A DNA stretch of 43,460 nucleotides from Candidatus Zixiibacteriota bacterium (GCA_020344395.1 CP070824.1:2351940-2395399); one strand, 5' to 3'. Positions 14,198-40,717 are shown, numbered from the stretch's first letter. A program made the numbers and translations. Notes: generated by a model from the letters alone, not told the origin.

Positions 14198-14755
14198 ATG
14201 GCTACTAACATATACATTATATGGCAGGGTGTCCTTGAGGGTAGCCCGGCTGCCTGGCAGGAACTGGTGGGGCTTTATTCCGGTCTTGTCAACACAATCG
14301 CGATTCGTGTTGGACTGGATGTCGCTGACGCCGAAGACTGCGCCCAACAAACGTGGCTGACCCTTTATCGCAAACGAAGCTCAATACGCGATCCGAAGGC
14401 CTTGCCGGCCTGGCTGATCCGCACAACCCACCGAAGAGCTGTACGCATGTTTGAGCGACTCCGCCGAGGTGCCTCTGCGGGCAGGTCATTCGAGCAGGCA
14501 AAGAAGACTGTAACCCTACCCGTTGATGTCATAGAACAGCTTGAAACCCAGGCTATCATCGAGATTGGCATGCGCCAACTCGACCCGAGATGTCGTAAGT
14601 TGTTGCGTGCCCTATACTTGTCCCCGGAAGAGAGATCGTACCGGGAGATAGCCGGAATCCTGAAGATTAGACCCAATTCATTGGGACCGTTACGCTCTCG
14701 CTGCATGATCAAGTTAAGAAAAATCATAGAGAATCTTGGTTTTGAATCGGACTAA
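14198..14755 (+). CDS. ECF-type RNA polymerase sigma factor (cassette 1)
   Basis: A 185-residue sigma-70 family factor with only regions 2 and 4. Region 2 holds ADAEDCAQQTWLTLYR and PAWLIRTTHRRA, which bind core polymerase and the -10 element. Region 4 is the C-terminal helix-turn-helix (YREIAGILKIRPNSLGPLRS), which reads the -35 element. It aligns along its whole length with the sigma factor of cassette 2 (both start with five or six residues, then IWQ.VL.GS), supporting this start although the ribosome binding site is weak. It is first in a four-gene operon; the next gene begins 46 bases later. ECF factors usually control their own operon and are held by a protein encoded next door. No extra sensory C-terminal domain is present. 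Confidence 0.92.
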   Translation: MATNIYIIWQGVLEGSPAAWQELVGLYSGLVNTIAIRVGLDVADAEDCAQQTWLTLYRKRSSIRDPKALPAWLIRTTHRRAVRMFERLRRGASAGRSFEQAKKTVTLPVDVIEQLETQAIIEIGMRQLDPRCRKLLRALYLSPEERSYREIAGILKIRPNSLGPLRSRCMIKLRKIIENLGFESD

Positions 14756-14801
14756 ATCGAACACAGGATGCTCCTTTAAGCAGCACAGGCAGTAAAGCAT
14801 A

Positions 14802-15320
14802 ATGCCAAAGAAACACAGGATCGGAAAACAGAGTAAAGGACGAGCACTATCCATGAAGTCAATATTGGCAGGACTTGAGGCTGGTGCTGTTCGATTGACG
14901 GAAGATATGATTAACCCAAATGATGATGCTACAAAGAGATACGGAGCCATCCCGCTGATGTTTGAGAAGCAGCCGAGACGAGAGATCGCAGTAGGCCGGA
15001 TTACTTATGATTCGTGGCGACAAGGCCCGGCTCCCGCGCTCCGTAACGTCATGGATGGTCATTTGCGCCGCCTCACCCTTAAAGCAGGATCAGTCAAGCT
15101 GGAGATTGTTGCCCAGAAGGTCCGAAATGATTGGGAGTTTGTGGCCCGAGTATATTCCAGAAAAGGCGTCAGGCATGATATGGTGCTTCGAGTGGGCCGT
15201 CGAAAAATTCTGGCTGGCTCTGGCGGATACTTTCTGTGGTCGTCAAAGCTGGTACCGCGGAACTTACAATTGTTGTCCTATGAACATGATATAGTCTTTG
15301 AACAGCTTTCATGGCAATGA
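14802..15320 (+). CDS. Sigma-partner-like protein, cysteine-free (cassette 1)
   Basis: A 172-residue soluble protein with no signal peptide or membrane helix. Its last 105 residues match those of the 192-residue protein in cassette 2 (pattern DSW..GPAPALR...RRL.LKAG, then VA and WEF.ARVY), defining a conserved, probably beta-rich domain that I do not recognise. The cassette 2 protein begins with a zinc-finger-type anti-sigma motif; this one has no cysteine at all, so any binding of the sigma factor must work differently. The stop codon overlaps the start of the TPR-CHAT gene, suggesting coupled translation and a direct functional link. Role as anti-sigma factor, adaptor or CHAT substrate is inference from position. 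Confidence 0.75.
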   Translation: MPKKHRIGKQSKGRALSMKSILAGLEAGAVRLTEDMINPNDDATKRYGAIPLMFEKQPRREIAVGRITYDSWRQGPAPALRNVMDGHLRRLTLKAGSVKLEIVAQKVRNDWEFVARVYSRKGVRHDMVLRVGRRKILAGSGGYFLWSSKLVPRNLQLLSYEHDIVFEQLSWQ

Positions 15321-18037
15321 AGAAGATCAACCCTGACCGTATCGCCGAGAGGTTCTTGTCAACCGGCAAGTTTGATAAGATTACACCTGAGGAGCTGGCA
15401 ACAGTCTGCGACCGTATAGTCAGAACCGAGACACAGGTTTCAGTACCGACCTCCATCGATCTCGGTCGCAGATTTGTCACCCGAGCGGAGCCTTACGGCG
15501 GGCCTCTTCTGATGACCGCACTGCGAGCCCTCGGATGGGCTTATCTGGTCGGGGGCGAGTATTCAAGGGCCGAAAAGACATACCTGAAGGCCAGATCTCT
15601 CCTTCGCCGGGATGCTCTTTCCCGGGGACGCATAGACAGGGTACTGATAGACGTTTACATGTATCTTGGCCGCCTGGGCGAAGCCAAACGCCGAGCCCGC
15701 ATGGCCCTGGGCACCTTCCGCCGCCTGAAGGCGGATGACGACATTGCCAAAACCAACGTCAATTATGCCAACCTGCTGCATCGACAGGACCGGCATAAAG
15801 AAGCCAGAGTTTTGTACCAGCGCGCCGGCGATCATTTCCTTTCCCGAAAAGACGATCTGGCCGCGGCGTTGTGTTTCTACAACCTGGCTAACACGCTCGT
15901 CCAGCTGTTTGACTTTAAGAAAGCCGCGGAACTGTACGAGAAGGCACGAAAGATATTCAAGCGGCACGGTCACCTCTTACACGCCACCGGATGCCTCTAT
16001 GGTCTATCCTGGCTCCACATGCTTCAGGGTGATTTCCACATGGCTTTGCAGGAGCTGTCAGTCTGCGAGAACGGCTACCGGCAGGGTAAACAGCCCCGCG
16101 AATTGATACTGTGCCAGCTGGATCGAGCCGAATCCTACCTCAGTTTGAACCTGTTTGTGGACGCTCGCAAGGCGGCTGAGGACGCCTCGAGAAAAGCCGG
16201 CGAACTTGGGATCATGTATGAAAAAGCCAAGGCAGAATTCTTCTGCTCCAAGGCGACGTTGGGTCTCGGGCAGATACGTGCCGCCCGAGCCGGCCTCCGG
16301 CGAGCAGAAGAGGGCTTCAGCAAGGAGAAGAGTAAGGGTTTTCTGGCCGCGGTCAGATTTTTTCAGGCGCAGTTGGAATCCTCCAACGGTTTGAACCGGG
16401 CCAGGCTGGCCTCATCACGCAGGCTTCTCCGCAAGGCCCAGCTCCCTCTGTGGGAAGCGATCTGCGATTTGCAGATTCTCGCGGCTCAACCGAATGATCA
16501 CTCGACTGCCAGAAGACTGGCCAGAAACAAGGCGGTGAAAACGGTACCTCATCTCCTGGCCTCGCACCATACGTTGATGGGCGACCGAGAGGCGGGCCGC
16601 AGCCGGACGAGTTCGGCAGTACGGCACTGGACCAGGGCAGCCAACATACTTGATTCTGTTCGAGCCAAGTTGCCACCGGTCGAGATGCGATCAGCTTTCT
16701 TCGGCCAGCAGTCCGATCCCTACCGCAAGCTGATCAGAGCCGAATCAGACAGGAACCCGCTGAAAGCTGCAGTCTGGTCTGAGAAATTCAAGACGGCTGG
16801 TTTGTGGGCCACCTCAGATGAAGTCCTCGCCACCAACCCGGCCCGTCAACAGATAGAGAAGAGTCTGTCGGAACTCGCGACCCAGGTTACGGCCGTATCG
16901 GCTCTGGTGGATGACAAGTCTGGACACCGCTCCATGACCGGCCGGGTTGGAGAGGCTTTCGATAAACTGGGGCGGAGAATTCGGAACGAGCTGGCATCCC
17001 TCGAGCAGCTTGAAGATTCGCGGCCCGAGGCTTTTGAGGATGTCTCTTCCCAGATCGTGTCATGTTCAATGAAACAACCTATAGTCCAGTTCCACGTTGG
17101 TGCAAGGGACATATTCGCCTTCGTGCACTACAGGGGTAGCAGCAGAGCACACTGCTATCCCGACGGAACTGCAGTCCTGGGCGGGCTGGTCGCACGCTGG
17201 CGCTTTCTTGTGGAATGCGCACCCGCCTCGATAAGGAAGCCCCGGTCGCGCGATCTGAGCGATGAAAAAGAAATCCTCCGCAGAATAAGTACCTGGCTGC
17301 TTCCGCCACTGGAGCTGCCCGGTGATAATCATCGGTTGTTGATCTTGCCGGAAGGACAATTGGCCAGCCTACCATGGGCAGGGCTGCATCACAACGGTGG
17401 CTGCCTGACGGATTCTTTCGAACTTGTGTTTGCCCCCAGTCTCAGGCACCACCTTCATGCAGAGCGGATTTCCGTTCGATCCAGGAAGGTCAGGATCTTT
17501 GTAGGTGAATCTCATGGTCTGCCGCACATCAGGGAGGAGCTCGCGGCTGTTCGGTCCCGTGCCCCCAAGCATCTCACTGAGTTCTACGATCCTTGCCGGC
17601 GTTCCGACTGGCCGGATAACAGTTCCGCCGGTCTATGGCACTTCACAGGCCATGCCTCTTTGAGATCTGACAACCCGTTTTATTCTGCCTTGATGCTGGC
17701 TGACGGCCCCCTGTTTGCCGCCGATTTCAGACTGAAGAGAAATCGTGTAAAACTGGTTACTCTTGCGGCCTGCCGGACCGGTCAGCACACCAGCCTTCCT
17801 GGCGAGGAATCGACCGGCCTGGTAAGATCGCTCCTTGAAATGGGAGCTCAGAATGTCATTGCAAGTAATTGGGCAGTTTCCGATCTGTCCACCTCACTAT
17901 GGATGGATCTTATGTATAAATCTTATTTGAGCGGCTCGACAGCCGGTGAGGCCGTCAGGCACGCTGCTGAGGGCGTCAGGGAGACGTTCCCGTCAGTTTA
18001 CAACTGGGGAGCTTTCTCCACATTTGGCGCTGGATAA
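15317..18037 (+). CDS. TPR-CHAT caspase-like protease (cassette 1)
   Basis: A 906-residue cytoplasmic protein. The first 500 residues are helical TPR-type repeats (for example CFYNLANTLVQLFDFKKAAE), usual for binding a partner protein. The last 300 residues are a CHAT domain, a clan CD peptidase related to caspases and separase. Its catalytic pair is present: His in HFTGHA (H779) and Cys in AACRTG (C819), with the downstream helper block VIASNWAVSD. The start is ATG at 15317, overlapping the previous stop as ATGA; an ATG at 15311 is the alternative. It aligns end to end with the paralogue at 37337-40042. CHAT proteases cut one or few protein targets when triggered. The target here is unknown; the neighbouring partner protein, the sigma factor and the subtilase are candidates. 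Confidence 0.92.
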   Translation: MKKINPDRIAERFLSTGKFDKITPEELATVCDRIVRTETQVSVPTSIDLGRRFVTRAEPYGGPLLMTALRALGWAYLVGGEYSRAEKTYLKARSLLRRDALSRGRIDRVLIDVYMYLGRLGEAKRRARMALGTFRRLKADDDIAKTNVNYANLLHRQDRHKEARVLYQRAGDHFLSRKDDLAAALCFYNLANTLVQLFDFKKAAELYEKARKIFKRHGHLLHATGCLYGLSWLHMLQGDFHMALQELSVCENGYRQGKQPRELILCQLDRAESYLSLNLFVDARKAAEDASRKAGELGIMYEKAKAEFFCSKATLGLGQIRAARAGLRRAEEGFSKEKSKGFLAAVRFFQAQLESSNGLNRARLASSRRLLRKAQLPLWEAICDLQILAAQPNDHSTARRLARNKAVKTVPHLLASHHTLMGDREAGRSRTSSAVRHWTRAANILDSVRAKLPPVEMRSAFFGQQSDPYRKLIRAESDRNPLKAAVWSEKFKTAGLWATSDEVLATNPARQQIEKSLSELATQVTAVSALVDDKSGHRSMTGRVGEAFDKLGRRIRNELASLEQLEDSRPEAFEDVSSQIVSCSMKQPIVQFHVGARDIFAFVHYRGSSRAHCYPDGTAVLGGLVARWRFLVECAPASIRKPRSRDLSDEKEILRRISTWLLPPLELPGDNHRLLILPEGQLASLPWAGLHHNGGCLTDSFELVFAPSLRHHLHAERISVRSRKVRIFVGESHGLPHIREELAAVRSRAPKHLTEFYDPCRRSDWPDNSSAGLWHFTGHASLRSDNPFYSALMLADGPLFAADFRLKRNRVKLVTLAACRTGQHTSLPGEESTGLVRSLLEMGAQNVIASNWAVSDLSTSLWMDLMYKSYLSGSTAGEAVRHAAEGVRETFPSVYNWGAFSTFGAG

Positions 18038-18075: not shown

Positions 18076-21000
18076 ATGATTACCGAGCACATTAGATGGA
18101 CTCTTGCGCGAGCGGTCTGGACAGGAATCACCGTTTTCGTCATACTGTTAGTAGGCAATGGTCTCGTGCGGGCTGACGATAACAACGGGCTCAGCAGAGA
18201 TAAAACCGGAACGGATGACCTCGAGGCTCCCCGGGCTGTTTTCACTGCAGAGCAGGTAGTAGTAAAATTCACGTCTGATACAGTATCCTGGGCCGAGTTC
18301 AGCGATTCGATAAATGCCGATGTATCGCGCCAACTGTCCCATTCGGGAGCATTCCTGTTTCAACTTGGCCCGGACGACAACCCGGAGGAGTTCGCGGAAG
18401 AACTCAACCAGGTGGGGAAAGTCGAGTACGCTCATCCAAACTACCTGGTCGACGATCTGCACCCCGTCCAGGGAAGTTACCCGTTCTCTGACGTGGCCGG
18501 CACCGGCAGTTTCGACGATCAGCCGGCGGTTTCTACAGTCGACCTGACCTCAGCACAGGACCTTGCCAGCGGAAGCGGCGTGACCGTCGCGGTCATCGAC
18601 GGCGGCATTGACATCTTCCACCCTGAGCTGTCGGGAATTGCTACTTACGGATATGACTATGTGGATGGTGATGATGCTCCTTTTGATGAACCCGGAGGAC
18701 AATGCAGCGGCCACGGCACTTTTGTGGCCGGCGTAATTCACCTCGGTGCACCGGACGCAGAGATTCGGGCTTACCGAGTGATTGATGCCGAAGGAATCGG
18801 AGACGGGTTCACGCTGGCCATAGCCATTGAGAACGCCGTTGACGATGGCTGCGACATCATTAATCTCAGTCTTGTGCTGATGGCCGAGCATATGGCCGTC
18901 AAGGATGCCATCGCCTATGCGGCCAGCCAGGGAGTACCGGTCATCTGTGCAGCGGGCAATGAAGGCACAAGCTTGCCGGTCTATCCCGGAGCCTGGGATC
19001 TGCCTATCACAGTGGGCGCCGTCGATACCGCGCAACTGCTGGCAGATTTTTCTACCTATGGTAACCAGATTGATGTCTGTGCGCCCGGAACGGACATCTA
19101 CTCCACTTACCAGGACGACGGCTTTGCCTGGTGGAGCGGCACCAGCTTTGCCACACCGTTCGTCACGGCTCAGGCCGCCCTGCTGAGAGAGGTTCGCCCC
19201 ACAGCGTCAAGTCAGGACCTGATCACGGCCATATCTCTTACGGCGGCCGACCTCGATGAAAACAACCCTGATTACCAGGGACAGCTTGGAAACGGCCTGG
19301 TCGACTTCTATTTGTCAATCGGTTTTATGAACACGCTGGAGACAGCCTGGGTTGTGCCGGATACTCTGTTCATGGAATTCATGGAAGGAGTACAGGCGCT
19401 CGTGGTGCCGGAAGCGTGGGTTCACATCTACTCAAGCAATGCTCCTGCCATGTATGTACCCCAAGTATTGCCGGGTGACCCGACATTTGTCTGGACTGAT
19501 TCTTTGACAGGGTTCACCGACGACTCGGTTCTGCTGTACATCAGCCCCTCTCCCGGGCCGGTCGGCACATACTACAATACCGTCAGATTCGATGTCGACG
19601 GTGTCCCGGTCCCGACAGACCTGACGGTTTGCGTGACGGTCATTCCCAATCCTGACACAACCTATCATGCTTTCGTTGCCCCCAATGTGCTGAACTTCCG
19701 GGCTCCGGCGTACTCCGAAATGGCATTGACAGAGACAGCCGTCTTGTACTCCAGCAACGCCCCTGCATCTTACCTGGGGTACAGGTTAGAGCCAAGGAAC
19801 GATTTCCTATATCTTCAGGACTCCACCGGTTATCTCTTCGATTCATTAACAGGAATCACCGTGGACTCTATCACGGTAATGGTGCTTCCGAGTCTGGCCG
19901 CTGGCCCCGGTTTCTACACAGATTCCGTGGTTTTCGAAGTGGATGGCGTGGAGCAACCGCCGCTGCTGGTCATAAACGTTGAATTGACAGATCCCAATGG
20001 TCCGACCGCCTGTTGCGACGAACCGGGGGATGTGAATAGAAACGGGGTTGCTTACGAGATCGCCGACCGAGAGACTCTGGCCGTAGCCCTTTTTTACGGC
20101 GATTCGACTTATCTGCCCTGCATTGGCAATGCCGACGTGGTCAGAGACTGCCTGATAAACAATGATGATCTGGTCTATATGCAGGCTGTTATCCAGGGCG
20201 ATACCGTGCCACCCATCCCGGAGTGCGGTCTCTGCACGGAATATCTCTTCCTCCCGAATGGCGACAGCGCCTGGATTTACCACGATACCGATTTTGTGTA
20301 CGTCGTTGATGAAGGATCAACTGAGGCGGTATTTGGTAGTGTCTTTGTCACGTCGTCCAATGCCCCGGCGAACTTCATTGTGGAAGTTGTCGGGCCACCC
20401 CATTTCATCACCTTGCTGGAGGATCATGGTATAACCAACGATTCCTTGCGCTTCCAGGTGAGCGCCAACGGGTCCCCGGCCGGGTGGTACGTCGAGACCC
20501 TGCGGTTCATGGTTGAGGGTGCGGTCAACAACCCGGTTTATGTGGACGTGCCGATTCTGGTCCAGCCCACAGGACCAGTGCCTGACAGCGCCCATGTCCA
20601 GCCAACCAGCGTCTATTTCAATGCAACGGCCGGCAGTAGTTTCGAGCAGTACGACGACGTGTATCTCACATCATCCAACGCACCCGCCTTCTATACGGCC
20701 TACGTGCTGAGCAGTGCGGGCATCGTCACCATCCAGGATTCAGCGGGCATGACCAATGATTCTGTGGCTTATGTGGTGCGGAGCGATTCGACCTTCGAGC
20801 CGGGCATCTATGTTGACACGATCGCTTTCGAAGTCGAAGGCGTAGTCAACAGCCCCGTTCATCTTGAAGTCTATCTGACAATCGACACCGTTGGCGGTGC
20901 AACTTGCTGTGGGTTTCCCGGTGATGTCGACGGCAACGGCATCCTCTATGAAGCAAGCGACGCGAATCTTCTGGTATCTGCTCTCACCACCGGCGACACT

Positions 21001-22383
21001 GCCTACCTGCCATGCATCGGCAACGCCGACATCGATGGCGACTGCCGGATAGATCTATCCGATCTGATAATCCTGCAGGCCGTCATAAACGGCGATTCCC
21101 TTCCGTACCCCACCGAGTGCGGCGGCTGTCGTTCATATGAATTGATTCCGGATTCAAGCGGGCAGGGTACAGCTATCGTGTGGCCTTACTCACAGGTCTA
21201 CGAGGTTCCGGCTGATAGTCCATTTACATTCTCAGGCGGTGTATATCTGACCTGCAGCGGAGGGCCGACAAACTACACCGTCGGCTTTCTGGATTCACCG
21301 GATTTCACCACGCTGCTGAACAACGCCGGAATAACCGATGACTCGATCCTCTTTACGGTCGGCAGCGATACCGGACTCGACTCCGGACTGTATGCCGACA
21401 CCCTCATGATTGTGGTCCAGGATGCGGCCAACTCTCCGGTGTATGGTATAGTCTACGTGGATGTGGGCGGGGCCGGTTCCGGCTTGGGCGTGGCTACTGC
21501 CTGGCCTGTCAGTCAGGCGTTCGAGGCACCTTCCGACAGCCAGCTCGTGCAGCCGGGTAGCGTGTATCTTACATGCACGAAGGAGCCTCACGACTTCACC
21601 GTAGGAATACGTGACGAAGCCGACTTCCTCGTGCTGCTGGATTTCAGCGGGACGACCGATGACTCGGTGAATTTCACCGTCAACGGCGGCCTGGGCATGA
21701 CACCGGGACTGTACGTGGACACTTTACAATTCGATGTTCCGAATGCCTCCAACACACCGGTATTCTCGGTCGTGTACCTGACGGTAACCGAGCCGGTTAA
21801 TCCAAGCGACGATTCGGCGTGGGTCGACCCGTCCTTTGTGCAGAGCAATTTCATGAGCATTCATGATCCGCTCGATACCGTCGGAGTCTTCCTTAGCTCG
21901 ACTAACGCGCCCGCAATGTACAGTGGCTATGTCATTGGAGGGCCGACCAGCTTTGTAAGCTTACCTGACTCGGTTGGGTTCACCAACGATTCGGTCTTCC
22001 TCGTGTTCGACCCGTGGAACTACATGGCGGGCACGCATTACGATTCTATCCTCTTTGACATTTCGGGAATCGACAATCCCGTAATCTTGCTTGTCTCCAT
22101 GTACGTGGCCATGGATTCGATGCCGGCCCTGACTCTTACGGCCTATCCTAACCCGTTTAACCCTGCCGTGAACATTATGTTTGACCTGCCCGTGGCCTCC
22201 GAAGTCCGACTGCAGATATTCAATGTCGTCGGGCGGATGGTGAGTACCCTGGTTGATGGTGAGCTTGGTGCCGGCCGGCACTCGGTAGCCTGGGACGGCA
22301 GCACATATGCCAGCGGTATTTACTTCTACAGGTTGGAAACGAACGAAGCTGTCCTTACTCGAAAGATGGTGCTATTGAAGTAA
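18076..22383 (+). CDS. Secreted subtilisin-family protease with dockerin-like and FlgD-like modules (cassette 1)
   Basis: A 1435-residue exported serine protease of family S8. A signal peptide (helix about 14-32) and an inhibitor-like propeptide (about 55-125, with the usual VEYAHPNY) precede the catalytic domain (about 155-415). The triad is visible: D175 in AVIDGGID, H213 in SGHGTFVAGV and S357 in GTSFATP, with the oxyanion Asn at N295. Then come beta-sandwich repeats marked by SSNAPA (about 430-1340), interrupted by two dockerin-like segments starting at CCDEPGDVN and CCGFPGDVDGNG. A C-terminal FlgD-like/type IX-style module (about 1355-1435, YPNPFNPAV to KMVLLK) probably directs or anchors it at the surface. 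The ATG at 18076 follows GAGGA. It is last in the sigma/CHAT operon, 38 bases after the CHAT gene, making it the likely effector. Confidence 0.94.
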   Translation: MITEHIRWTLARAVWTGITVFVILLVGNGLVRADDNNGLSRDKTGTDDLEAPRAVFTAEQVVVKFTSDTVSWAEFSDSINADVSRQLSHSGAFLFQLGPDDNPEEFAEELNQVGKVEYAHPNYLVDDLHPVQGSYPFSDVAGTGSFDDQPAVSTVDLTSAQDLASGSGVTVAVIDGGIDIFHPELSGIATYGYDYVDGDDAPFDEPGGQCSGHGTFVAGVIHLGAPDAEIRAYRVIDAEGIGDGFTLAIAIENAVDDGCDIINLSLVLMAEHMAVKDAIAYAASQGVPVICAAGNEGTSLPVYPGAWDLPITVGAVDTAQLLADFSTYGNQIDVCAPGTDIYSTYQDDGFAWWSGTSFATPFVTAQAALLREVRPTASSQDLITAISLTAADLDENNPDYQGQLGNGLVDFYLSIGFMNTLETAWVVPDTLFMEFMEGVQALVVPEAWVHIYSSNAPAMYVPQVLPGDPTFVWTDSLTGFTDDSVLLYISPSPGPVGTYYNTVRFDVDGVPVPTDLTVCVTVIPNPDTTYHAFVAPNVLNFRAPAYSEMALTETAVLYSSNAPASYLGYRLEPRNDFLYLQDSTGYLFDSLTGITVDSITVMVLPSLAAGPGFYTDSVVFEVDGVEQPPLLVINVELTDPNGPTACCDEPGDVNRNGVAYEIADRETLAVALFYGDSTYLPCIGNADVVRDCLINNDDLVYMQAVIQGDTVPPIPECGLCTEYLFLPNGDSAWIYHDTDFVYVVDEGSTEAVFGSVFVTSSNAPANFIVEVVGPPHFITLLEDHGITNDSLRFQVSANGSPAGWYVETLRFMVEGAVNNPVYVDVPILVQPTGPVPDSAHVQPTSVYFNATAGSSFEQYDDVYLTSSNAPAFYTAYVLSSAGIVTIQDSAGMTNDSVAYVVRSDSTFEPGIYVDTIAFEVEGVVNSPVHLEVYLTIDTVGGATCCGFPGDVDGNGILYEASDANLLVSALTTGDTAYLPCIGNADIDGDCRIDLSDLIILQAVINGDSLPYPTECGGCRSYELIPDSSGQGTAIVWPYSQVYEVPADSPFTFSGGVYLTCSGGPTNYTVGFLDSPDFTTLLNNAGITDDSILFTVGSDTGLDSGLYADTLMIVVQDAANSPVYGIVYVDVGGAGSGLGVATAWPVSQAFEAPSDSQLVQPGSVYLTCTKEPHDFTVGIRDEADFLVLLDFSGTTDDSVNFTVNGGLGMTPGLYVDTLQFDVPNASNTPVFSVVYLTVTEPVNPSDDSAWVDPSFVQSNFMSIHDPLDTVGVFLSSTNAPAMYSGYVIGGPTSFVSLPDSVGFTNDSVFLVFDPWNYMAGTHYDSILFDISGIDNPVILLVSMYVAMDSMPALTLTAYPNPFNPAVNIMFDLPVASEVRLQIFNVVGRMVSTLVDGELGAGRHSVAWDGSTYASGIYFYRLETNEAVLTRKMVLLK

Positions 22384-29322: not shown

Positions 29323-30108
29323 CTACAGTCCCAGTTCCCCCGCTTCAAACTCGAACTTGGACGGCTTCAATCTGATCAGCCACTCAGAATCGGAATCCCC
29401 GGACAGGCTCGCCGGATCGGAAAGGTATTTTTCGTTGACCTCAACGACCAGGCCCGACAGAGGTGTGAGAACAATATGTGATCGAAGATCGGTCGAAAAT
29501 ATCCGGAGATAAACGCTGCCCTGGCGCAATTCGTCTCCTCTGGTCGGCAGGAAGACATTCTGGATACGGCCCGCAGTACTTAGGAAATCACCTGCAGCGC
29601 CCAGAAGGATTGTGCCATCGTCCTCCAGTCTTTTCCAGCCGTACTCACGGATAGCTGTCGGTTGCCTGTCTCTATCCGTCGCACCACTCAAGACGGGAGG
29701 GTCGACCGGACTGGATGAATCGCGAGCCTCAGTTGCATGGACGAATTCCGAGGCACGTTGAAGCACCGAAGTAAGTTCCGATCTGGTGAAAGGCTTGGCC
29801 ACATAATCGAAGGCACCCAGATTGGTTGCCTCAAGGGCGGTGTTGATCGTTGCATAGCCCGTAATCATGATTACCGGGATTTGCGGCGCCCGCTCTTTCA
29901 TAATCTTAAGGAACTCCAGACCGTCCACTTCCGGCATCATCAGATCAGTGAGAATGATATCGATGCTGGTTTCGTCCATTAAAGAAAGTGCTTCTTTGAC
30001 CGAGCGCACCGTATGCAGAGTAAACTCCTCCTTTCTGACATGCTTCCGGATGCTCTCCAGGACTATCCGCTCGTCGTCAATAGCCAGAATGCTGAGGTTA
30101 CGTTTCAT
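29323..30108 (-). CDS. Response regulator with GcvH-like C-terminal domain
   Basis: A 261-residue protein, last in the operon kinase-like protein / histidine kinase / regulator. The receiver domain (1-120) is complete: acidic pair DDE (11-13), phosphorylation site D55 in LTDLMMP, MITGYA, and KPF. A linker leads to a domain (about 170-250) resembling the glycine-cleavage H protein (LTPLSGLVVEVNEKYL), the family that carries lipoate. At the lipoyl-lysine position (ESVKA in GcvH) this protein has TDLRS, so lipoylation is unlikely. There is no DNA-binding domain. The start at 30108 follows GGAGCAGGA; the in-frame ATG at 30144 would overlap the kinase stop. It probably signals by protein contact. 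Confidence 0.88.
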   Translation of the reverse strand: MKRNLSILAIDDERIVLESIRKHVRKEEFTLHTVRSVKEALSLMDETSIDIILTDLMMPEVDGLEFLKIMKERAPQIPVIMITGYATINTALEATNLGAFDYVAKPFTRSELTSVLQRASEFVHATEARDSSSPVDPPVLSGATDRDRQPTAIREYGWKRLEDDGTILLGAAGDFLSTAGRIQNVFLPTRGDELRQGSVYLRIFSTDLRSHIVLTPLSGLVVEVNEKYLSDPASLSGDSDSEWLIRLKPSKFEFEAGELGL

Positions 30109-30140
30109 AATCCTGCTCCAGTATCTCCAACCCTGTATTG

Positions 30141-31958
30141 TCAATCATTACTGCCGGAAGCCGGCAGGACTATCTTAAACACGGCGCCACCTTGTTCGGA
30201 TTCCTCAATCACGATGGTTCCGTGATGACGTTCTGCAATTCCCCAACTGACCGCCAGGCCGAGGCCGTTGGTGCCCTTGGTCGAGAAGAACGGCTCAAAA
30301 ACCCTGTCTGCCAGTTCATCTGGTATGCCCGGACCGTTGTCCTCCACAGCTATGATGCATTTATCCGCAACCACATCATAGCTGGTTCGGAGAGTTATCT
30401 GCCCGTGACCGTCCATCGCGTCGGCTGAGTTGAGCATCAGATTAAGAATGACCTGCTGTAACTGTTGCATGTCACAGAGGATAGAGGGGAGTTTCTCGAC
30501 GAGGTTCTTTGTTATCGAGATATTACGGAATTGAGGCAGCTTGTGCACCAGGAGCAGAGCTTCCTCAACTACACGGTTGGGGTCGCGTTGCTGGAGATCG
30601 AGTTTTTCGAAGCGTGCAAAATCCAGGAGATTTCGCACTATCTCCCTGCACCTGATGGTTTCCCGGACAATTACGCCCAAGTCGTGGCGATATCGATGAT
30701 TGTCAGGCAGTTCCGACATAAGATCTTCGGCAAAAGCGAGAATCCCTGTCAACGGATTGTTGATCTCGTGCGCCACGCCGGCTGCGAGTTTGCCGACGGC
30801 AGCCAGTTTGGCGGCTTGCACCAACTGGTCATTGAGTTCCTTTTCGGACGTAACATCACGAGCGATGGTGCAGATCCCCGTGGTTTCACCGCCATGGTCG
30901 GTTAACGGAAAGCGGACTGTCTGGAAATGGCGATCCCGACCCCTCAGGTGATATACCTCATGATAGGTGCGGTGCCGACTCGACTTGATGACCTCGGTAT
31001 CATGTTCTCGTATTATGCGGGCGACGTTAACCGGCAGTATTTCCTCCGGCTTATGCCCGATGAAATCTCCAGGAGTCAGGCCGAAAGCCTGCGCACATAC
31101 AGGATTGACGATCAGGTAGCGTCCGGTGAGATCTTTTATTGAGATCCAGTCGTGAGCCGAGTCGATAAAACTCTTGAAGCGCTGTTCGGCGCTTTCGATC
31201 TCGCGATGAAGCATGATTCTTTCGGTTATCCGGTGCCATGTTCCAACGACCCCTTCCGGTGATCCGCTCCGCCCGAGGATGGGGGTGTGGATTATCTCCC
31301 AGTATGCTTCCCTTGGCCGGGCTGTCTGCCAGACAATGGACCGCTGACGACCGCTCCGGAGGACATCATCCAGGATGCCCGATATCTCATCACAGGAAGG
31401 GAACAGTTCGGTATTACGCAGCACATCGAAACAGGTACTGCCCTCCACGTTCTCGGCAGTGAACCCGCCAAACTCAAGAAAGGCGGCATTGGTCCGAATC
31501 ACTTTCTTGTCGCGGTCAAAAACGATAATCAGGTCGGGGAGTGTATCAAAAAGACTCTGGAGAAACCGGCGCTCAGTTTCGATCTTCTCCTCGAGCTTGG
31601 TTATCTCCACCAGATGCCATTCTTGTTCTTTCTGGGCATTGGCCAGGTCCCAGAAGATGTGGGCGATGGTGTGGTCGATCAGCCTGACACCGTGGGGAAG
31701 CAGTCGATAGATATCTTCGAGCACTTTGTCACTGCCCGTCAGCTCGATCACCAGTTCGAGATCTTTCCCCCACATCGCCTGGATCAGATCATTGCTGGTG
31801 GGAATGCCGAGTTCCTTCGCCCGCAGCACGCCCGGCGCCCCGGGATCGATATCCACCACGCACTTCACATCGAGTATCAGTTCTCTGAGAAAAGGCCCGG
31901 TAGCCAGGTCGAGGATGCCTATACAGCCCTTCCCAGCGCCTACAATCACAGTTTTCAC
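30141..31958 (-). CDS. Rossmann-PAS-PAS histidine kinase
   Basis: A 605-residue cytoplasmic sensor kinase with no membrane helix. Residues 1-105 are a Rossmann-like fold (VIVGAGKG, then DIDPGAPG and VIELTGSD), as in the dehydrogenase-like N-termini of some Deltaproteobacterial sensor kinases, and may bind NAD(H). A short coiled coil and two PAS domains (about 133-245 and 258-370) follow. The phosphorylated His is H397 in GVAHEINNPL, and the ATPase domain has the N box (NLMLNSADAM), DNGPGIP and GTNGLGL. The start is GTG at 31958, sharing GTGA with the stop of the upstream kinase-like gene; the regulator begins 32 bases after its stop. Together they form a coupled phosphorelay unit. A redox or PAS-cofactor signal is possible. 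Confidence 0.93.
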   Translation of the reverse strand: MKTVIVGAGKGCIGILDLATGPFLRELILDVKCVVDIDPGAPGVLRAKELGIPTSNDLIQAMWGKDLELVIELTGSDKVLEDIYRLLPHGVRLIDHTIAHIFWDLANAQKEQEWHLVEITKLEEKIETERRFLQSLFDTLPDLIIVFDRDKKVIRTNAAFLEFGGFTAENVEGSTCFDVLRNTELFPSCDEISGILDDVLRSGRQRSIVWQTARPREAYWEIIHTPILGRSGSPEGVVGTWHRITERIMLHREIESAEQRFKSFIDSAHDWISIKDLTGRYLIVNPVCAQAFGLTPGDFIGHKPEEILPVNVARIIREHDTEVIKSSRHRTYHEVYHLRGRDRHFQTVRFPLTDHGGETTGICTIARDVTSEKELNDQLVQAAKLAAVGKLAAGVAHEINNPLTGILAFAEDLMSELPDNHRYRHDLGVIVRETIRCREIVRNLLDFARFEKLDLQQRDPNRVVEEALLLVHKLPQFRNISITKNLVEKLPSILCDMQQLQQVILNLMLNSADAMDGHGQITLRTSYDVVADKCIIAVEDNGPGIPDELADRVFEPFFSTKGTNGLGLAVSWGIAERHHGTIVIEESEQGGAVFKIVLPASGSND

Positions 31959-33254: not shown

Positions 33255-36200
33255 TTATTTCAATAACAGCATCTTGCGCGCTTCAACGAACTCACCGGCT
33301 GTCATTCTGTAGAAGTAGAGTCCTGAGGCCACGGACGTGGCATCCCATTGTACACTGTGATACCCCGCCTCGAGACGGCCATCAATGATGGTGGTCACTT
33401 TTCGTCCAAGGACGTTGTAGACTTCCAACTTGACCTCTGAGGCTGTCGGAAGACCGAAGGCAATGGTCGCCACCGGATTGAACGGGTTAGGATAGTTCTG
33501 GGCCAGGAAATAGTCATCCGGCAGTCCGGTTTCCCCGGCTCCCTTTACAGCAAGCGCGAGAGACCGGTGATCTGCATCCGACGCCGTTGCGGAAACCACC
33601 TCGTAGTTTCCCTCGATCGTCACCAGTTGATTCTCTCCCGCCGGGATGCTGTTGCTGCCATCCAGATCCAGCAATCCGACAACCAGGCGATCATCTCGCT
33701 GACCGACCAGCAGATCAAGCTCGGGTGCGGCGAGGCTGGCTGCATCGGCAGTCCCCCGGCCGGTCAGACTGATCATGATGCCGCGCAACTCGACATCAGA
33801 AGTCAGCGTCAACTCAGTATTGCCGCTCACCTGTCTGGCCTCGAGTGATCCGACCGACCCCGGCAACATGGCCCTGGCCGGCGGCGCGGCATCGGCGCAG
33901 GACGGCAACGGAGCGTAAGTAATGAACAGATGGTCAATCAGAGCCGTCACGTCGGCTATGTCCACGACGCCATCGGGACCGTCCAGCGGTGCCACGTCAG
34001 CCTCACCATACGCCTCAAGAGGCTCCATACTGATAAACAGGTAATCTATCAGTGCCGTCAGATCACCCATATCAACCTCGTAGTCGAAACTGCCATCTAT
34101 ATTACCCCGCGGGACCCCCAAACAGGTGTTGCCAAACGGATCACAGTACAGATTACCTGCTGAAACCGCCAGCACCGGGACTTCGCCTATCACCACTGCG
34201 CCCGGGTTCTCTCCACCATCCAGACGTGAGATAACTGTAGTGTGAGTAGCACCGTCATCCGGTATATCGGTCAGGGCGATATCTATCAACTGCTCCTGGC
34301 TCGACGACGTCAGGGAAAACGTCAGGGTGGCAAAGTGAATGTAATCCCATACGCTGGGAAAGACCTGGTTCTGCGACAGGACAGCAGTCGACGACACCGC
34401 GTCCACCACCGCAAACTCCCTTATCTCGCCGCCAAGATTGTGCCACTGAATGTTGTCGAGAGTCAGGGGTGAAGTGGCGCAGTCATACGAAAAGGCTAAC
34501 GATATACCACCGAAATCATCCGAGGCGTTGATCCAGACTTCTACATCCCAGGTGTCATTACCCGGTGGCACTGACAGGTTCATGAAGCGTACCGTGTCCT
34601 CAGACGTCGGATAACCACCTTCATGCAGAAGTTCGCAGGAGGGCGGTGTGAACGTCCAGAACAGGTAGCTCCACAGTGTCATGAAGTCATTATTGGTGAT
34701 GCCCGGATAGCCATCGATGAGTTCAAGCGACGTATTAGGGGATGGGTCGCAGTCCAGATACAGATAGCCCAAGAACTGAGCGATATCACTTATGTCGATC
34801 CAGCCATCTTCATCGAAGTCGCCGCATGATAGATCTCCCGGAGACAAGCCAACGCTGAGTGGCGCGGCGTGATGGCTTATATCAGATGCAACGGCCGAGA
34901 CGATTTCGTACTCTCCGTCAAGAGTCAGAACCTCAGTCCGCCCGGCCAACAACGTCTGGTCACCATCCAGATCAACGATACCAACGGACACCAGATCGCC
35001 GGTCTGGCCCGATATCAGATCCATGCGATCGCTGAGGGCGCTGGTGATTGCCGTTCCTTCATCACCTTTCAGTTGAATCTGCAGACCGCGAAGTTCTGTC
35101 GAAGAATTGATCCAGACGGTTGTTCTGCCGTCTTCGAACACGGTGCCAATCGAGCCCACCGGGTCGGCCGGAACAGCCGGCGGCGCGGCATCGGCACAGG
35201 ACGGCAACGGAGTGTAAGTGATGAACAGATGATCGATCAGAGCTGTCACATCGGCTATGTCCACCACACCATCGGGACCGTCCAGCGGTGCCACGTCAGC
35301 CTCACCATACGCCTCAAGAGGCTCCATGCTGATAAACAGGTAATCTATCAGAGCCGTCAGATCACCCATATCAACCTCGTAGTCGAAACTGCCGTCAATA
35401 TTACCCCGAGGGATCCCCAGACAGGTGTTGCCAAACGGATCACAGTACAGATTACCTGCTGAAACCGCCAACACCGGGACTTCGCCTATCACCACTGCGC
35501 CCGGGTTCTCCCCACCATCCAGACGTGAGATGACTGTAGTGTGGGTAGCACCGTCATCCGGTATATCGGTCAGGGCGATATCTATCAACTGCTCCTGGTC
35601 CGACGGCGTCAGAGAAAACGTCACCGTGGCAAAGTGAATGTAATCCCATACGGTGGGGAACATCTCGGTCTGAGCCAGAACCGCTGTCGATGACTCGGCA
35701 TCAATCACCGCGAACTCTACCAGAGAGCCTTTCGTCTCGTGCCACTGGACGCTGTCAATAGTCAGCGGTGAAGTGGCACAGTCATATGAAAAGGCCAGCG
35801 AAACACCACCAAAACTATCCGATGCGTTGATCCAGACATCTACATCCCAGGTGTCGTAGCCCGGTGGCACCGAGAGGTTCATGAAGCGTACCGTATCCTC
35901 AGATACCGGGTAGCCACCCTCATGAAGCAGAACACAGGATGGCGGAGTGAACGTCCAGAACAGATAGCTCCACAGCGTCATGAAGTCATTACTGGTGATG
36001 CCGAGATAGCCGTCAATCAGCCCAAGCGACGGATTGGGTGACGGATCACCGTCCAGATAGAGATAGGCGAGAAGCCTGGTAATATCGAGTATGTCGATAC
36101 TGCTGTTCAGATCAAAATCGCCGCACGAATTGTCTGCGGCCGCTGTCAGGGACGCACCTACATCAATGAGCCCGGATCCCAGTTGGCCGGCGTACCCTGT

Positions 36201-37313
36201 ATTAATATTATCGATGTTGACAGCCGTACCCACGATAGCATTCAGGGCTTGATCCCAGGTAGCAGTAGGAACGAGCGCAAACACCAGAGCAGCCTGCCCG
36301 CTCACAAAAGGAGCAGCAAAACTGGTTCCTCCCCACCAGGCATAACCTTCATCCCGGTAAGGGGAGTATACCTCAGTGCCAGGGGCACACACATCAATGT
36401 AATCCCCGAACGAAGAAAAATCGGCCAGCAGGCTCACCGAGTCAATCGCCGCGACGGCCAGCACGTTGGGATCACTGGCCGGGTAATGAGCTTCTCCCAG
36501 CGGTTCGTTGCCGGCCGCAGCCACGACTATAACGTTGTTTTGTTTTGCATAATCGACAGCCTCGGCAATGGCCTCATGATCTGCCGTTGATACCAGCGAA
36601 AGGTTGATCACCTTGCAGCCGTCTGCGATCGCCTGTAAAATCGCTTCTGCAACGACAAAGCCATCCGCTTCACCGTCGACGTCAGTCACACGATAGGCCA
36701 CTATCTGTGCGCTCGGGGCGACCAGATGAATAACGCCGGATACGAAAGTACCGTGGCCGCTGTTGGCCCCACCTGGTTCATCGTTTGCCACAGCGTCCAC
36801 GTCGACGTAATCATATCCGGACACTACCGACCCTTCAAAGGCGGGATGGTCGAGGTCCACACCGCCGTCAAGTACACCTATCTTGACACCTCCGCCGGTC
36901 ACAATCGAATGCACTGTAGGCAAGTCCAACGTTTGCGCAGCCGGCTGGTCCTCGTAGCTCCCCGTTCCGGCGACATCGGAAAAGGGCAGGCTGCTTTGTA
37001 CCGAGTTGAGAGGGTCAATCAAGAAGTTAGGATGACAGAATTGGACCTCAGGCAGCGCCTCTATCTCCGCCGCCAACGCCATCAAATCTCCCGGTGCAAT
37101 TGTATTGACCAGGTGCACCTCGAGTTGAGGCAATTCCTGGACAACGTAGGCTCCGTAGTCCGCTATAACCTGATCAACAGACTGGCCCTCCGCCATCTTG
37201 ATGACCAGCTCCGCGGACGCGAACCTTGGCTCAGCCTGAACAGCCACGGACAACAGCAGGCATATTGCCACAACCGTCGCCATCAGGCTCATGTGCTCAC
37301 TGAGTCGTTTCAT
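33255..37313 (-). CDS. Secreted subtilisin-family protease with cohesin-like and dockerin-like modules (cassette 2)
   Basis: A 1352-residue exported S8 protease, paralogue of the cassette 1 subtilase. After the signal peptide (helix 9-27) a propeptide ends near VQFCHPNF. The catalytic domain has D149 (GVLDGGVD), H187 (SGHGTFVSGV), N269 (AAGNE) and S331 (GTSFAAP). The rest differs from cassette 1: two copies of a 433-residue unit, each with dockerin-like F-hands (DGYxGITxNDFMTLWSYLF), a cohesin-like beta sandwich (TWDVDVWINASD) and another dockerin pair (VDMGDLTALIDYLF). A FlgD-like C-terminal module (NYPNPFNPVATI to KMLLLK) ends it. The ATG at 37313 is chosen because GGAG lies 8 bases upstream; ATG at 37319 is possible, and longer frames overlap the CHAT gene. 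The gap to the CHAT stop is 23 bases. Confidence 0.93.
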   Translation of the reverse strand: MKRLSEHMSLMATVVAICLLLSVAVQAEPRFASAELVIKMAEGQSVDQVIADYGAYVVQELPQLEVHLVNTIAPGDLMALAAEIEALPEVQFCHPNFLIDPLNSVQSSLPFSDVAGTGSYEDQPAAQTLDLPTVHSIVTGGGVKIGVLDGGVDLDHPAFEGSVVSGYDYVDVDAVANDEPGGANSGHGTFVSGVIHLVAPSAQIVAYRVTDVDGEADGFVVAEAILQAIADGCKVINLSLVSTADHEAIAEAVDYAKQNNVIVVAAAGNEPLGEAHYPASDPNVLAVAAIDSVSLLADFSSFGDYIDVCAPGTEVYSPYRDEGYAWWGGTSFAAPFVSGQAALVFALVPTATWDQALNAIVGTAVNIDNINTGYAGQLGSGLIDVGASLTAAADNSCGDFDLNSSIDILDITRLLAYLYLDGDPSPNPSLGLIDGYLGITSNDFMTLWSYLFWTFTPPSCVLLHEGGYPVSEDTVRFMNLSVPPGYDTWDVDVWINASDSFGGVSLAFSYDCATSPLTIDSVQWHETKGSLVEFAVIDAESSTAVLAQTEMFPTVWDYIHFATVTFSLTPSDQEQLIDIALTDIPDDGATHTTVISRLDGGENPGAVVIGEVPVLAVSAGNLYCDPFGNTCLGIPRGNIDGSFDYEVDMGDLTALIDYLFISMEPLEAYGEADVAPLDGPDGVVDIADVTALIDHLFITYTPLPSCADAAPPAVPADPVGSIGTVFEDGRTTVWINSSTELRGLQIQLKGDEGTAITSALSDRMDLISGQTGDLVSVGIVDLDGDQTLLAGRTEVLTLDGEYEIVSAVASDISHHAAPLSVGLSPGDLSCGDFDEDGWIDISDIAQFLGYLYLDCDPSPNTSLELIDGYPGITNNDFMTLWSYLFWTFTPPSCELLHEGGYPTSEDTVRFMNLSVPPGNDTWDVEVWINASDDFGGISLAFSYDCATSPLTLDNIQWHNLGGEIREFAVVDAVSSTAVLSQNQVFPSVWDYIHFATLTFSLTSSSQEQLIDIALTDIPDDGATHTTVISRLDGGENPGAVVIGEVPVLAVSAGNLYCDPFGNTCLGVPRGNIDGSFDYEVDMGDLTALIDYLFISMEPLEAYGEADVAPLDGPDGVVDIADVTALIDHLFITYAPLPSCADAAPPARAMLPGSVGSLEARQVSGNTELTLTSDVELRGIMISLTGRGTADAASLAAPELDLLVGQRDDRLVVGLLDLDGSNSIPAGENQLVTIEGNYEVVSATASDADHRSLALAVKGAGETGLPDDYFLAQNYPNPFNPVATIAFGLPTASEVKLEVYNVLGRKVTTIIDGRLEAGYHSVQWDATSVASGLYFYRMTAGEFVEARKMLLLK
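33881..34826 (-). repeat. Long direct repeat, copy 1, in the cassette 2 subtilase gene
   Basis: About 950 bases closely matching 35180-36125 at an offset of 1299 bases (433 codons). It encodes dockerin, cohesin-like and dockerin segments. Long stretches are nearly identical (for example around 33950-34190), indicating a recent in-frame duplication or gene conversion. Confidence 0.9.
35180..36125 (-). repeat. Long direct repeat, copy 2, in the cassette 2 subtilase gene
   Basis: Partner of the repeat at 33881-34826, with an exact offset of 1299 bases at both ends. The 350 bases between copies encode a region that matches the sequence after copy 1 only weakly, so the original duplication was longer and only this part has stayed alike. 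Confidence 0.9.
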
Positions 37314-37336
37314 GATCATATCTCCTTCTCTTTGCA

Positions 37337-40042
37337 TTACGCTCCAAATAGTGAAAAAGCCGCCCAATTGTGGACGGACGGGAATTCTTCTCGCACGGCC
37401 AGAGCCGCCTCGGAAACAGCCTCTGGCACTGATTTTCCGGAGAGATAATTCTGGTAAAACAGCTGCATCCATCGAGCGGTTGACTTGTCCGACACCGCCC
37501 AGTGACTGGCCAGCACGTTCCTGGCCCCCATTTCCAGCAGTGAACGCACCAGACCGGATGATTCCACGCCCGGGATGTATGTCTGCTGTCCGGTCCGACA
37601 TGCAGCCAGGACGGCCAGTCCGACCTTGTTCTGCTTCAGCCTGAAATCAGCAGCGAATATCGGCCCATCTGACAGCGATAAGGACGAATAAAACGGGTTA
37701 TCACTCCGCATCCGAGCGTGCCCTGTATAATGCCACACTTTGCTCTCGGTATTGTCCGGCCAGTCTCTTCTCAGGCAAGGATCAAAGACCGTCACGTTCG
37801 GCGATGCCTGATTTAGCAGGTCTGACAGTTCTTCCCGAGTATGTTTGAGATCCTGACTTTCACCGACAAAAATTCTGATCTGCTCTGATTTGATTCTCAG
37901 TCCGGCGGCACGGATATGATGACGTATGCTGGGAGCGACAATTATGTGCTGGTCCCTTATAATAGGATGACCGTTTGTGGACAAAGCATGCCAGGGCAGA
38001 TTGGTCAGTTTTCCGTCCGGAATGATCAGCACCCTCTTGTCTCTGTTCGAGATCTCCAGAGGTGACCAAAGCCAGCCCGCGAGATCTGAAAAGATGTGCC
38101 TCTCCTCCTTCAGATCAGAGCGGAGGTTTTTCCCCCCGTTGATAAGGGCGCGGTTCAGTTGTACCTGCCAGCATCCCAGATAATCCGAGACAATGCGCAA
38201 CCCATCGCCGAGTCTGTGGTGTCTTGTTTCACCCCGTTCATGGATGAATGCAACCAGGTCGTTTCCCTCGAAATGAAACTGCACGATCGGCTGGCGTATC
38301 GATGCCGCCTGAATATCTTTCAGCAAATCATCGAAACGTACTTTTGCCGGAGGCAAAGTGTATTCAAGCTGCGCTACATTATGACGCACTTGTCTTTGTA
38401 GCCTTCGAATTTCCCCGGCCACGGCTGATGTGCCTTCGGTTCTGGTGCCGGCAGACTCTGATATCCGCGCAGACAGGGTTGTGACCTGACGGGCGAGCTG
38501 TTCGAGGCTGGTCTCAGCCTGCCGGCGCAGGTTGCTGGATATATCGTTCTCGGAAGGTGGTCTCCAGAGGCCGGCGGTTTTGTAACGCTCCGCCCAGGTC
38601 GAGGCGCGAGCCGGGCTGATGGCAGTCTCTGATGCAATCAGTCTCAAGTACGGATCGTTCCTGTGGGCCAGGAAAGCTGAGCGGAGCTCTACGGGCGGCA
38701 ATTTGGCCCGCACTGCTTCAAGTCGCTCGACAGCCTGACTCCAGTGACGGCGCGCCTCCGCCATCCGTCCCCGCTCGGCCTGCCGGTCTCCCAGAATAGT
38801 CTGCCACTGCGCGTACAGATGCGGTACCGTCTTAACGGCGGCGTTTCGGCTCAGGCGTTGGAAAGTCGTGTTGTCGTCTGGCCTGGAGGCCAGAATCTGA
38901 AGATCGCAGATTGCTTCCCACAATGGCAATTGGGCGCGCGAAAACTTATCTCGGATGCGCCTGATCCGGGCAATTGGTGTCCGTTTGCCTGCACTGATTA
39001 AGGAATCCGACAGCTCCACAGCGGCCAGAAATCCCTGGTTATTGACTTTCCCAAAACCGGTTCTGGCCCGTCCCAGCGCTCGGGAGGCCTCAGCTTGATG
39101 CCCAACCGCCCGCGCCGCCCTGGCCACGAAAAGCTCTGCTTTGGCCGACTCGTAGTCCAGCCCCAGTCGCCGTGATTTCTTTCCTGCACTGTGGGCCGCT
39201 CTCCGAGCATCCGTAAACAAATTCAAACCCAGATATGCTTCCGCTCGGTCCAGTTGACACAGCATCTCACCCTTGGGCTGACCTGCCTTGCGGTAGTGAG
39301 CCTCACAGTCCGCAAGCATACTCAGTGCCTGGTGATAGTCCCCTTCCAACATGTGCAGCCAGGCCAAACCGTATCGACACTCATTTGAATAAAGATCATA
39401 TCCATGTTCTGCAAACGCCTTCTCGGCCTGTTTGTATAGAGAATTTGCCCTGGAGAAGTCAAACAACTGAACCAGCGTGTTGGCCTGGTTATACTGGCAA
39501 AGAGCCAGGCTCAACCTGTCCCTGCGATATCTAAAATAGTCACCGGCCAGGCTATATTGCTTGAGTGCCTCACGGTGGCGATCCTGCCGGTGAAGAAGAT
39601 TGCCATAATTGGCGTGCGTCTTGGCAGCCTCACCGTCTTCTCCCAATCTCCGAAAGGTGGCTAGCGATATCCTGGCCCGGCGGCGAGCTTCCTTGAAGTC
39701 ACCTAGGTACATATATGTGTCAATAAGGATTCTATCAATGCGGGCCCGGACAAGCGGTTCCCTGAGAGCCAGGGCCCGAGCCTTCAGATATGCAGGCTCA
39801 GCCTGTCGATACGTGCCGCTGACATGCAGGGCCCATCCAAGCGCGCGGTAGGCTGTCTGAAGAAGAACACCTTTGTGTCGCATGGCCTGCTTGACAAAGG
39901 CGCGGGCATTTCTCACCGCCTCGGTCAACGACTGCTGTGTCAGCTCGCGGATGATACGGTCACAGGCCCGAGCCATATCAGATGGGTCAGCCTTACCGAG
40001 TTTTCCGCTGCGCAGAAACTGTCGTGCTGCCTTCTCCATCAT
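37337..40042 (-). CDS. TPR-CHAT caspase-like protease (cassette 2)
   Basis: A 901-residue paralogue of the cassette 1 protein with the same layout: TPR-like helices over the first 500 residues (YNQANTLVQLFDFSRANSLY) and a C-terminal CHAT protease domain. The catalytic His (H775 in HYTGHA) and Cys (C815 in AACRTG) are 40 residues apart, as in cassette 1. Conserved blocks include LPLWEAICDLQILA, VRAKLPPVE and ESSGLVRSLLEMGARNVLAS. The start at 40042 shares ATGA with the preceding stop; ATG at 40060 or 40039 are alternatives. It has no signal peptide or membrane helix, so the protease acts in the cytoplasm. There is no CRISPR or Cas7-11-like gene nearby, which separates it from type III-E TPR-CHAT. 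Confidence 0.92.
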   Translation of the reverse strand: MMEKAARQFLRSGKLGKADPSDMARACDRIIRELTQQSLTEAVRNARAFVKQAMRHKGVLLQTAYRALGWALHVSGTYRQAEPAYLKARALALREPLVRARIDRILIDTYMYLGDFKEARRRARISLATFRRLGEDGEAAKTHANYGNLLHRQDRHREALKQYSLAGDYFRYRRDRLSLALCQYNQANTLVQLFDFSRANSLYKQAEKAFAEHGYDLYSNECRYGLAWLHMLEGDYHQALSMLADCEAHYRKAGQPKGEMLCQLDRAEAYLGLNLFTDARRAAHSAGKKSRRLGLDYESAKAELFVARAARAVGHQAEASRALGRARTGFGKVNNQGFLAAVELSDSLISAGKRTPIARIRRIRDKFSRAQLPLWEAICDLQILASRPDDNTTFQRLSRNAAVKTVPHLYAQWQTILGDRQAERGRMAEARRHWSQAVERLEAVRAKLPPVELRSAFLAHRNDPYLRLIASETAISPARASTWAERYKTAGLWRPPSENDISSNLRRQAETSLEQLARQVTTLSARISESAGTRTEGTSAVAGEIRRLQRQVRHNVAQLEYTLPPAKVRFDDLLKDIQAASIRQPIVQFHFEGNDLVAFIHERGETRHHRLGDGLRIVSDYLGCWQVQLNRALINGGKNLRSDLKEERHIFSDLAGWLWSPLEISNRDKRVLIIPDGKLTNLPWHALSTNGHPIIRDQHIIVAPSIRHHIRAAGLRIKSEQIRIFVGESQDLKHTREELSDLLNQASPNVTVFDPCLRRDWPDNTESKVWHYTGHARMRSDNPFYSSLSLSDGPIFAADFRLKQNKVGLAVLAACRTGQQTYIPGVESSGLVRSLLEMGARNVLASHWAVSDKSTARWMQLFYQNYLSGKSVPEAVSEAALAVREEFPSVHNWAAFSLFGA

Positions 40043-40617: not shown

Positions 40618-40717
40618 AGCTTCAAAAGTTCTGCGGTGACACCCGCCTGGTGGCAGGCCCGGTCGGTTCTGTCAATCACCGTCTGCTATCATGTGTCTGG
40701 TTTTCGAGTTTAAGTAC

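Follow-up and report, generated by a model that had tools for sequence, protein, structure and literature searches.

A TPR-CHAT protease is encoded in a cassette with an ECF sigma factor

The locus described here raises the question of whether a CHAT protease can free a sigma factor by proteolysis without the involvement of CRISPR. In the Craspase system of type III-E CRISPR, Csx29 cuts Csx30, and this frees CASP-sigma (PMC10028731). An earlier, sequence-only reading of the DNA had noted a TPR-CHAT gene that overlaps a candidate sigma-partner gene beside a sigma factor, and had suggested that a related logic, with a different trigger, may operate there. We analyzed the window, i.e., the whole stretch of 43,460 nucleotides from a Candidatus Zixiibacteriota bacterium (GCA_020344395.1, CP070824.1:2351940-2395399), and compared it with genomes of the same phylum.

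ORF coordinates and a match to Pfam Sigma70_r2 (E=5.8e-11) confirmed the arrangement. The first gene of cassette 1 encodes an ECF-type sigma-70 factor of 185 amino acids (14198 to 14755, plus strand; NCBIfam sigma70-ECF, 63 bits). It is followed on the same strand by the gene for a 172-amino-acid partner protein, P0002 (14802 to 15320), a putative soluble anti-sigma factor placed by subfamily A profile alignment, and by the gene for the TPR-CHAT protease (15311 to 18037; 908 amino acids), which overlaps the partner gene. The CHAT gene had been read as starting at 15317. Its ORF opens at 15311; position 15317 is an internal ATG and a possible alternative start, which would give an ATGA overlap with the partner stop codon. 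Downstream, and absent from the sequence-only reading, lies the gene for a secreted S8 subtilase of 1435 amino acids with a prodomain and a type IX sorting tail (18076 to 22383, plus strand; Peptidase_S8, E=1.3e-39). A Pfam-type domain search also matched this protein to Fervidolysin_NPro-like and Por_Secre_tail. Elsewhere in the window, a response regulator receiver domain is fused to a glycine-cleavage H-protein-like domain (29323 to 30144), and the gene for this fusion sits beside that of a PAS histidine kinase (30141 to 31958).

Pfam domain analysis of the TPR-CHAT protein placed the CHAT domain at residues 654 to 906 (E=6.7e-34, 118 bits versus a cut-off of 24), preceded by an arm of TPR hairpins. 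The motifs HFTGHA (residues 777 to 782) and AACRTG (residues 819 to 824) carry the dyad His781/Cys821, whose codons lie at 17651 to 17653 and 17771 to 17773 on the plus strand. Both residues were kept in all 40 of the complete cassettes described below, including those of subfamily B, and the earlier description of an intact His/Cys dyad with a TPR arm was therefore correct. An AlphaFold (AF2) model of the protein was obtained with a pLDDT of 84.7 and a pTM of 0.82. Its best PDB match in Foldseek was the Craspase TPR-CHAT protein (7xsq_B; E=2.4e-15, TM about 0.4 to 0.5), and the order of matches was Craspase TPR-CHAT (Csx29), separase, and DdvA. The model is uncertain directly after each catalytic residue (residues 785 to 790 and 823 to 834). 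This would fit a site that needs activation, and a shallow alignment could equally be the cause. Hydropathy analysis found no membrane segment in CHAT or in any member of the partner family.

The same genome carries two further cassettes

The sigma/partner/CHAT/subtilase cassette occurs twice in the window and three times in the genome. Cassette 2, which also was absent from the earlier reading, is a complete, paralogous set of the same four genes on the minus strand (33255 to 41305), 11 kb from cassette 1. It encodes an ECF-type sigma factor (40718 to 41305; Sigma70_r2, E=1.3e-13), the 192-amino-acid partner P0006 (40039 to 40617), a TPR-CHAT protease that is 51% identical to that of cassette 1 (37337 to 40060), and a secreted S8 subtilase with a type IX sorting tail (33255 to 37601), the true start of which is probably near 37.32 kb.

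The third cassette is split between two places 1.7 Mb apart. We considered a biological rearrangement and rejected it in favor of a scaffolding fault. Its breaks coincide with two 100-base N runs (L056, 8499 to 8598, and L057, 6960 to 7059, at about 2.196 Mb and 0.528 Mb of contig C1 of genome G000) with identical short flanking sequence on each side, which indicates that the single-contig genome is misjoined there.

The four genes form an invariant unit in Zixiibacteriota

In order to determine how widely the arrangement is conserved, the CHAT protein was used to search 61 genomes and partner profiles to search the 132 genomes of the phylum, and 48 neighborhoods were taken. Most of the genomes with cassette genes are MAGs that bear the name Candidatus Zixiibacteriota. 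With the window included, the searches yielded 53 CHAT loci. In 40 of these all four genes were present, invariably with sigma first, then partner, CHAT, and S8 subtilase, along one strand. The other 13 loci were incomplete: they run into contig ends or N gaps, or they carry an internal stop or a split CHAT gene. Among the 53, every CHAT locus whose flanks were intact had the anti-sigma gene, and the overlap between the partner and CHAT genes was nearly universal. The sigma factor, partner, CHAT protease, and S8 subtilase are an invariant unit in the complete cassettes of this phylum.

The CHAT proteins fall into two subfamilies: A, which shares 41 to 59% identity with the window protein, and B, which shares about 25%. 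Of the catalytic triad of the subtilase, Asp and His were present in 40/40 complete cassettes and Ser in 37, the remaining three being alignment gaps. Mirror-tree analysis revealed that the pairwise distances of the four cassette proteins correlate (0.69 to 0.80 within A and 0.50 to 0.77 within B). These values fit genes that travel together, and shared descent alone could also give them.

Three cassettes are broken, by a split subtilase (L045, 4874 to 6279), a split CHAT gene (L073, 5578 to 8333), or an in-frame CHAT stop (L059, 39 to 2102); these breaks reflect either real decay or draft-assembly errors. At one locus, the cassette is closely preceded by the gene for a second, unrelated-looking TPR-CHAT protein of 705 amino acids (L040, 13385 to 15499; CHAT, 209 bits).

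The partner resembles class-I anti-sigma factors

We consider it very probable that the partner is a class-I anti-sigma factor of the soluble type, which would bind the adjacent sigma factor. This assignment is based on a zinc motif, on the matches of the subfamily B partners, and on an AlphaFold model with a helical domain and a beta-sandwich. Most subfamily A partners carry Hx3Cx2C, and wherever the motif was read by script, a further His was found 20 residues upstream (21 in one copy); together they are predicted to be a four-ligand zinc site. In P0006 the ligands are H7, H27, C31, and C34, and the spacing H-x19-H-x3-C-x2-C is conserved in the family. The AF2 model of P0006 (pLDDT, 84.8) has four helices in its N-terminal domain and a beta-sandwich after it, with Hx3Cx2C spanning helices 2 and 3. 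Such a placement of the motif is the feature by which class-I anti-sigma domains are recognized (PMC7406223); it is present in P0006 and in most subfamily A copies and absent from P0002. Matches of P0006 to zf-HC2 (E=0.005) and to the RsrA model (E=0.006) were both sub-threshold. A PDB fold search with the P0006 structure gave no match at E <= 0.001.

The zinc ligands have been lost, with the beta-domain kept, from the clade of cassette 1 (P0002 and L034 to L036) and from L047 and L052. P0002 has no Pfam match of its own and, if it is a class-I anti-sigma factor, must be a zinc-free form. It matches the profile of the subfamily B partners, which are also without the zinc site and are homologous to those of subfamily A (hhalign probability, 96%; E=4.6e-9). 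The N-terminal profile of subfamily B matches membrane anti-sigma proteins whose genes adjoin those of ECF sigma factors (E of about 1e-4 to 1e-3), and weak CarboxypepD_reg matches also were seen in the B partners. Through this profile we located small membrane anti-sigma proteins of 147 amino acids downstream of ECF genes at three loci (L160, 993 to 1433; L161, 504 to 944; and L162, 644 to 1084).

An invariant Arg (Arg81 in P0002 and Arg97 in P0006) lies in a flexible loop of the beta-domain, the least certain part of the model. This loop is a possible cut site. The residue after the Arg is Pro in many subfamily B partners, which disfavors cutting at exactly that position.

A promoter-like element precedes the partner gene

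Inspection of the junction between the sigma and partner genes revealed a promoter-like element directed toward the partner gene. In cassette 1 it reads GGACTAA-N15-CTCCTTTAA (14749 to 14779, plus strand), and the stop codon of the sigma gene overlaps with its -35-like part. Within the clade of this cassette, GGACTAA-N15/16-CTCYT was found at the same junction in four of five cassettes and in none of the shuffled sequences. The GGACTAA form of the window had one exact match in its genome, the cassette 1 junction itself, and no regulon is visible there. For cassette 2 we tentatively assign GGTACTTA-N17-CATGAT (40688 to 40718, minus strand), the -10 part of which is poorly conserved; a similar sequence, GGTACTAA, stands at the corresponding place in L056 and L060.

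At the 21 subfamily A junctions outside these two clades, the pattern G[ACT]ACG[AG]-N14-19-CTCT[AG] was present in 19, compared with a shuffle mean of 0.05 and a maximum of 1; the pattern was derived from the junctions tested, so that the shuffle test is not fully independent, and independent support comes from the genome search. The spacing was 16 in 17 of the 20 matching cassettes (these 19 and L040). By manual count, half of these 20 junctions (10) have the -10 part downstream of the stop codon of the sigma gene, and the element therefore is not explained by coding. Subfamily B junctions carry a less clear, GTATT-type element (4/16).

In one family (f4), the element TGAACGA-N15-18-CTCTGT also occurs, correctly oriented, in front of flanking genes, and a reversed control of the pattern had no matches in the same ten genomes. 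Phylum-wide, about 12 of 40 matches were within a few kilobases of cassettes (manual count). The targets include a second S8 subtilase with a sorting tail and a DUF5666 lipoprotein. Once, the element was found in front of a gene for a di-haem cytochrome c peroxidase (CCP_MauG; L178, 1501 to 2700), which hints that peroxide may be part of the cue or of the response.

The combination of GAAC and TCT fits ECF promoters generally. Given this fit, the junction element, and the f4 elements of flanking genes, it is very likely that the sigma factor drives the operon of partner, CHAT, and subtilase genes as well as secreted neighbors (the latter at least in family f4), and not its own gene. No clear shared promoter was found family-wide upstream of the sigma gene itself. 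A match there in one family was rejected, as it is the reverse complement of the promoter-like element of a divergent gene.

CHAT may cut the anti-sigma factor

We propose that the unit is a CRISPR-free signaling cassette in which CHAT cuts the anti-sigma factor on cue, freeing the sigma factor for the expression of secreted proteases, and we put the probability of this reading at about 0.5. In the cytoplasm, the soluble anti-sigma factor encoded by the adjacent gene would keep the ECF sigma factor inactive. The TPR arm of the CHAT protein would read the cue, whereupon the CHAT site would become competent. Activated CHAT then would cut the anti-sigma factor, probably within the flexible loop of the beta-domain or next to it, and so release the sigma factor. 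Free sigma would transcribe the anti-sigma/CHAT/subtilase operon from the junction promoter, providing feedback, and, at least in one family, the neighboring secreted subtilase and lipoprotein genes as well. The output would be a burst of secreted proteases. We infer the cut from the Craspase precedent, the gene overlap, and the conservation of the dyad, of which it is the best reading.

CHAT is encoded downstream of the presumed sigma-driven promoter and could be an output only. The main alternative is built on this position: the anti-sigma factor would sense the cue itself, through its zinc site or its beta-sandwich as ChrR/RsrA do, and CHAT would belong to the regulon, for example as a protease that acts in the cytoplasm to control damage or to kill the cell. 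ChrR consists of an anti-sigma domain and a sensor domain, and the C-terminal beta domain of the partner recalls it. Further points in favor are that the promoter-like element puts CHAT inside the sigma-driven operon, that one element-bearing gene encodes the di-haem cytochrome c peroxidase, and that zinc-type soluble anti-sigma factors often are redox sensors (PMC7406223). However, subfamily B and the clade of cassette 1 have no zinc site and yet keep CHAT and its dyad, and the association of intact CHAT loci with an anti-sigma gene has no exception. We regard this alternative as possible but doubtful.

It is rather unlikely that CHAT acts on the sigma factor or another cytoplasmic protein, with proteolysis limiting the response rather than starting it. 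Protease control of a sigma factor has been proposed for ECF54 in the account given in PMC8999054, and the position of the CHAT gene, directly after the anti-sigma gene and downstream of the junction element, is one that a shut-off factor could have. Against this, the protein nearest in fold, Csx29, has an anti-sigma factor and not a sigma factor as its substrate, and the gene overlap couples CHAT to the anti-sigma factor and not to sigma. The subtilase, present in every complete cassette, might itself be the regulator, as a site-1-like protease, with CHAT as a signaling scaffold. However, it has a signal-peptide-like hydrophobic N terminus and, in the window, a type IX sorting tail and is predicted to act outside the cell; the partner and CHAT have no membrane segment, and a mere scaffold would not need the invariant dyad, all of which makes this role very unlikely. 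CHAT proteases occur in defense systems, but an anti-phage function with CHAT as a suicide protease is highly improbable here, given that PADLOC matched neither CHAT, partner, nor sigma, that the CHAT-domain matches on plasmids were all weak and partial, with the partner unmatched there, that phages gave one weak CHAT match, and that the cassette neighbors are housekeeping or envelope genes and the outputs secreted proteases. The plasmid CHAT relatives also were considered as ECF-linked cassettes and rejected, as the two loci inspected had no sigma, partner, or subtilase genes.

Comparison with known systems

Cutting of the anti-sigma factor by CHAT, the reading we prefer, has its closest precedent in Craspase, whose module (Csx29, Csx30, and CASP-sigma) likewise sets a TPR-CHAT protein with a His/Cys dyad beside an ECF sigma factor and an anti-sigma partner. 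The cassette differs in that its partner is of 170 to 200 amino acids, is of the class-I anti-sigma type, and has no detectable relation to Csx30, and in that a secreted subtilase takes the place of the CRISPR machinery. We considered the partner as a relative of Csx30 by sequence and rejected this, as profile searches found no relation; partner profiles had no match at E <= 1 among PDB chains (entry 8eey is deposited as containing Csx30). The claim that no CRISPR is present held as far as it was tested: the Cas search, which covered Cas1, gave no match in the genome, which is 84.8% complete, and the window showed neither an array of direct repeats with short spacing nor a match to any Rfam family. 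The Craspase-related logic suggested by the sequence-only reading stands in part. The nearest fold is that of Csx29, the sigma/partner/CHAT unit is invariant, and the partner is a probable anti-sigma factor, but kinship with Csx30 was not borne out. That the cassette family is a CRISPR-independent sister or ancestor of the Craspase module, later captured by type III-E with crRNA-guided target-RNA recognition as its trigger, is a speculation with the odds well against it.

The kind of system is already known, through the neighbors of ECF54 and through DdvA. ECF54 is an ECF sigma group, with a listed model from Geodermatophilus, that has CHAT, subtilase, and carboxypeptidase-type domains nearby and is described without an anti-sigma factor; proteolytic sigma control has been proposed for it from the same neighbors (Casas-Pastor 2021, as reported in PMC8999054). 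The cassettes resemble that described neighborhood, with CHAT and subtilase near an ECF sigma factor in 40/40 complete cassettes. Unlike ECF54 as described there, every complete cassette has an anti-sigma-like gene between sigma and CHAT. The carboxypeptidase in that description may be the C-terminal domain of this anti-sigma factor, as the weak CarboxypepD_reg matches of the B partners suggest. DdvA of Myxococcus (PDB 8rot) likewise ties a CHAT domain to an ECF anti-sigma factor; it is a single transmembrane anti-sigma factor that carries CHAT, whereas in the cassette the two are separate soluble proteins.

The soluble zinc anti-sigma factors ChrR/RsrA also combine an Hx3Cx2C helical domain with a C-terminal domain beside an ECF sigma factor, but the cassette partners lose the zinc site in some clades and are accompanied by a protease. 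Separase, the second-best kind of fold match, likewise joins a helical-repeat arm to a clan CD protease; it is eukaryotic, has another substrate, and is much larger.

What is new, relative to the sequence libraries and literature compared, is the anti-sigma factor with its two forms, zinc and zinc-free, together with the junction element, the secreted regulon, and the invariance of the arrangement across the phylum. The cassette provides a candidate substrate and a promoter, both defined, along with outputs that are secreted, and it corrects the picture, as drawn in the ECF54 description, of CHAT- and subtilase-linked ECF sigma factors without an anti-sigma factor. If the proposed mechanism is true, the cutting of anti-sigma factors by caspase-like proteases would be a widespread bacterial switch rather than a CRISPR oddity, and the logic of Craspase would gain a natural CRISPR-free model.
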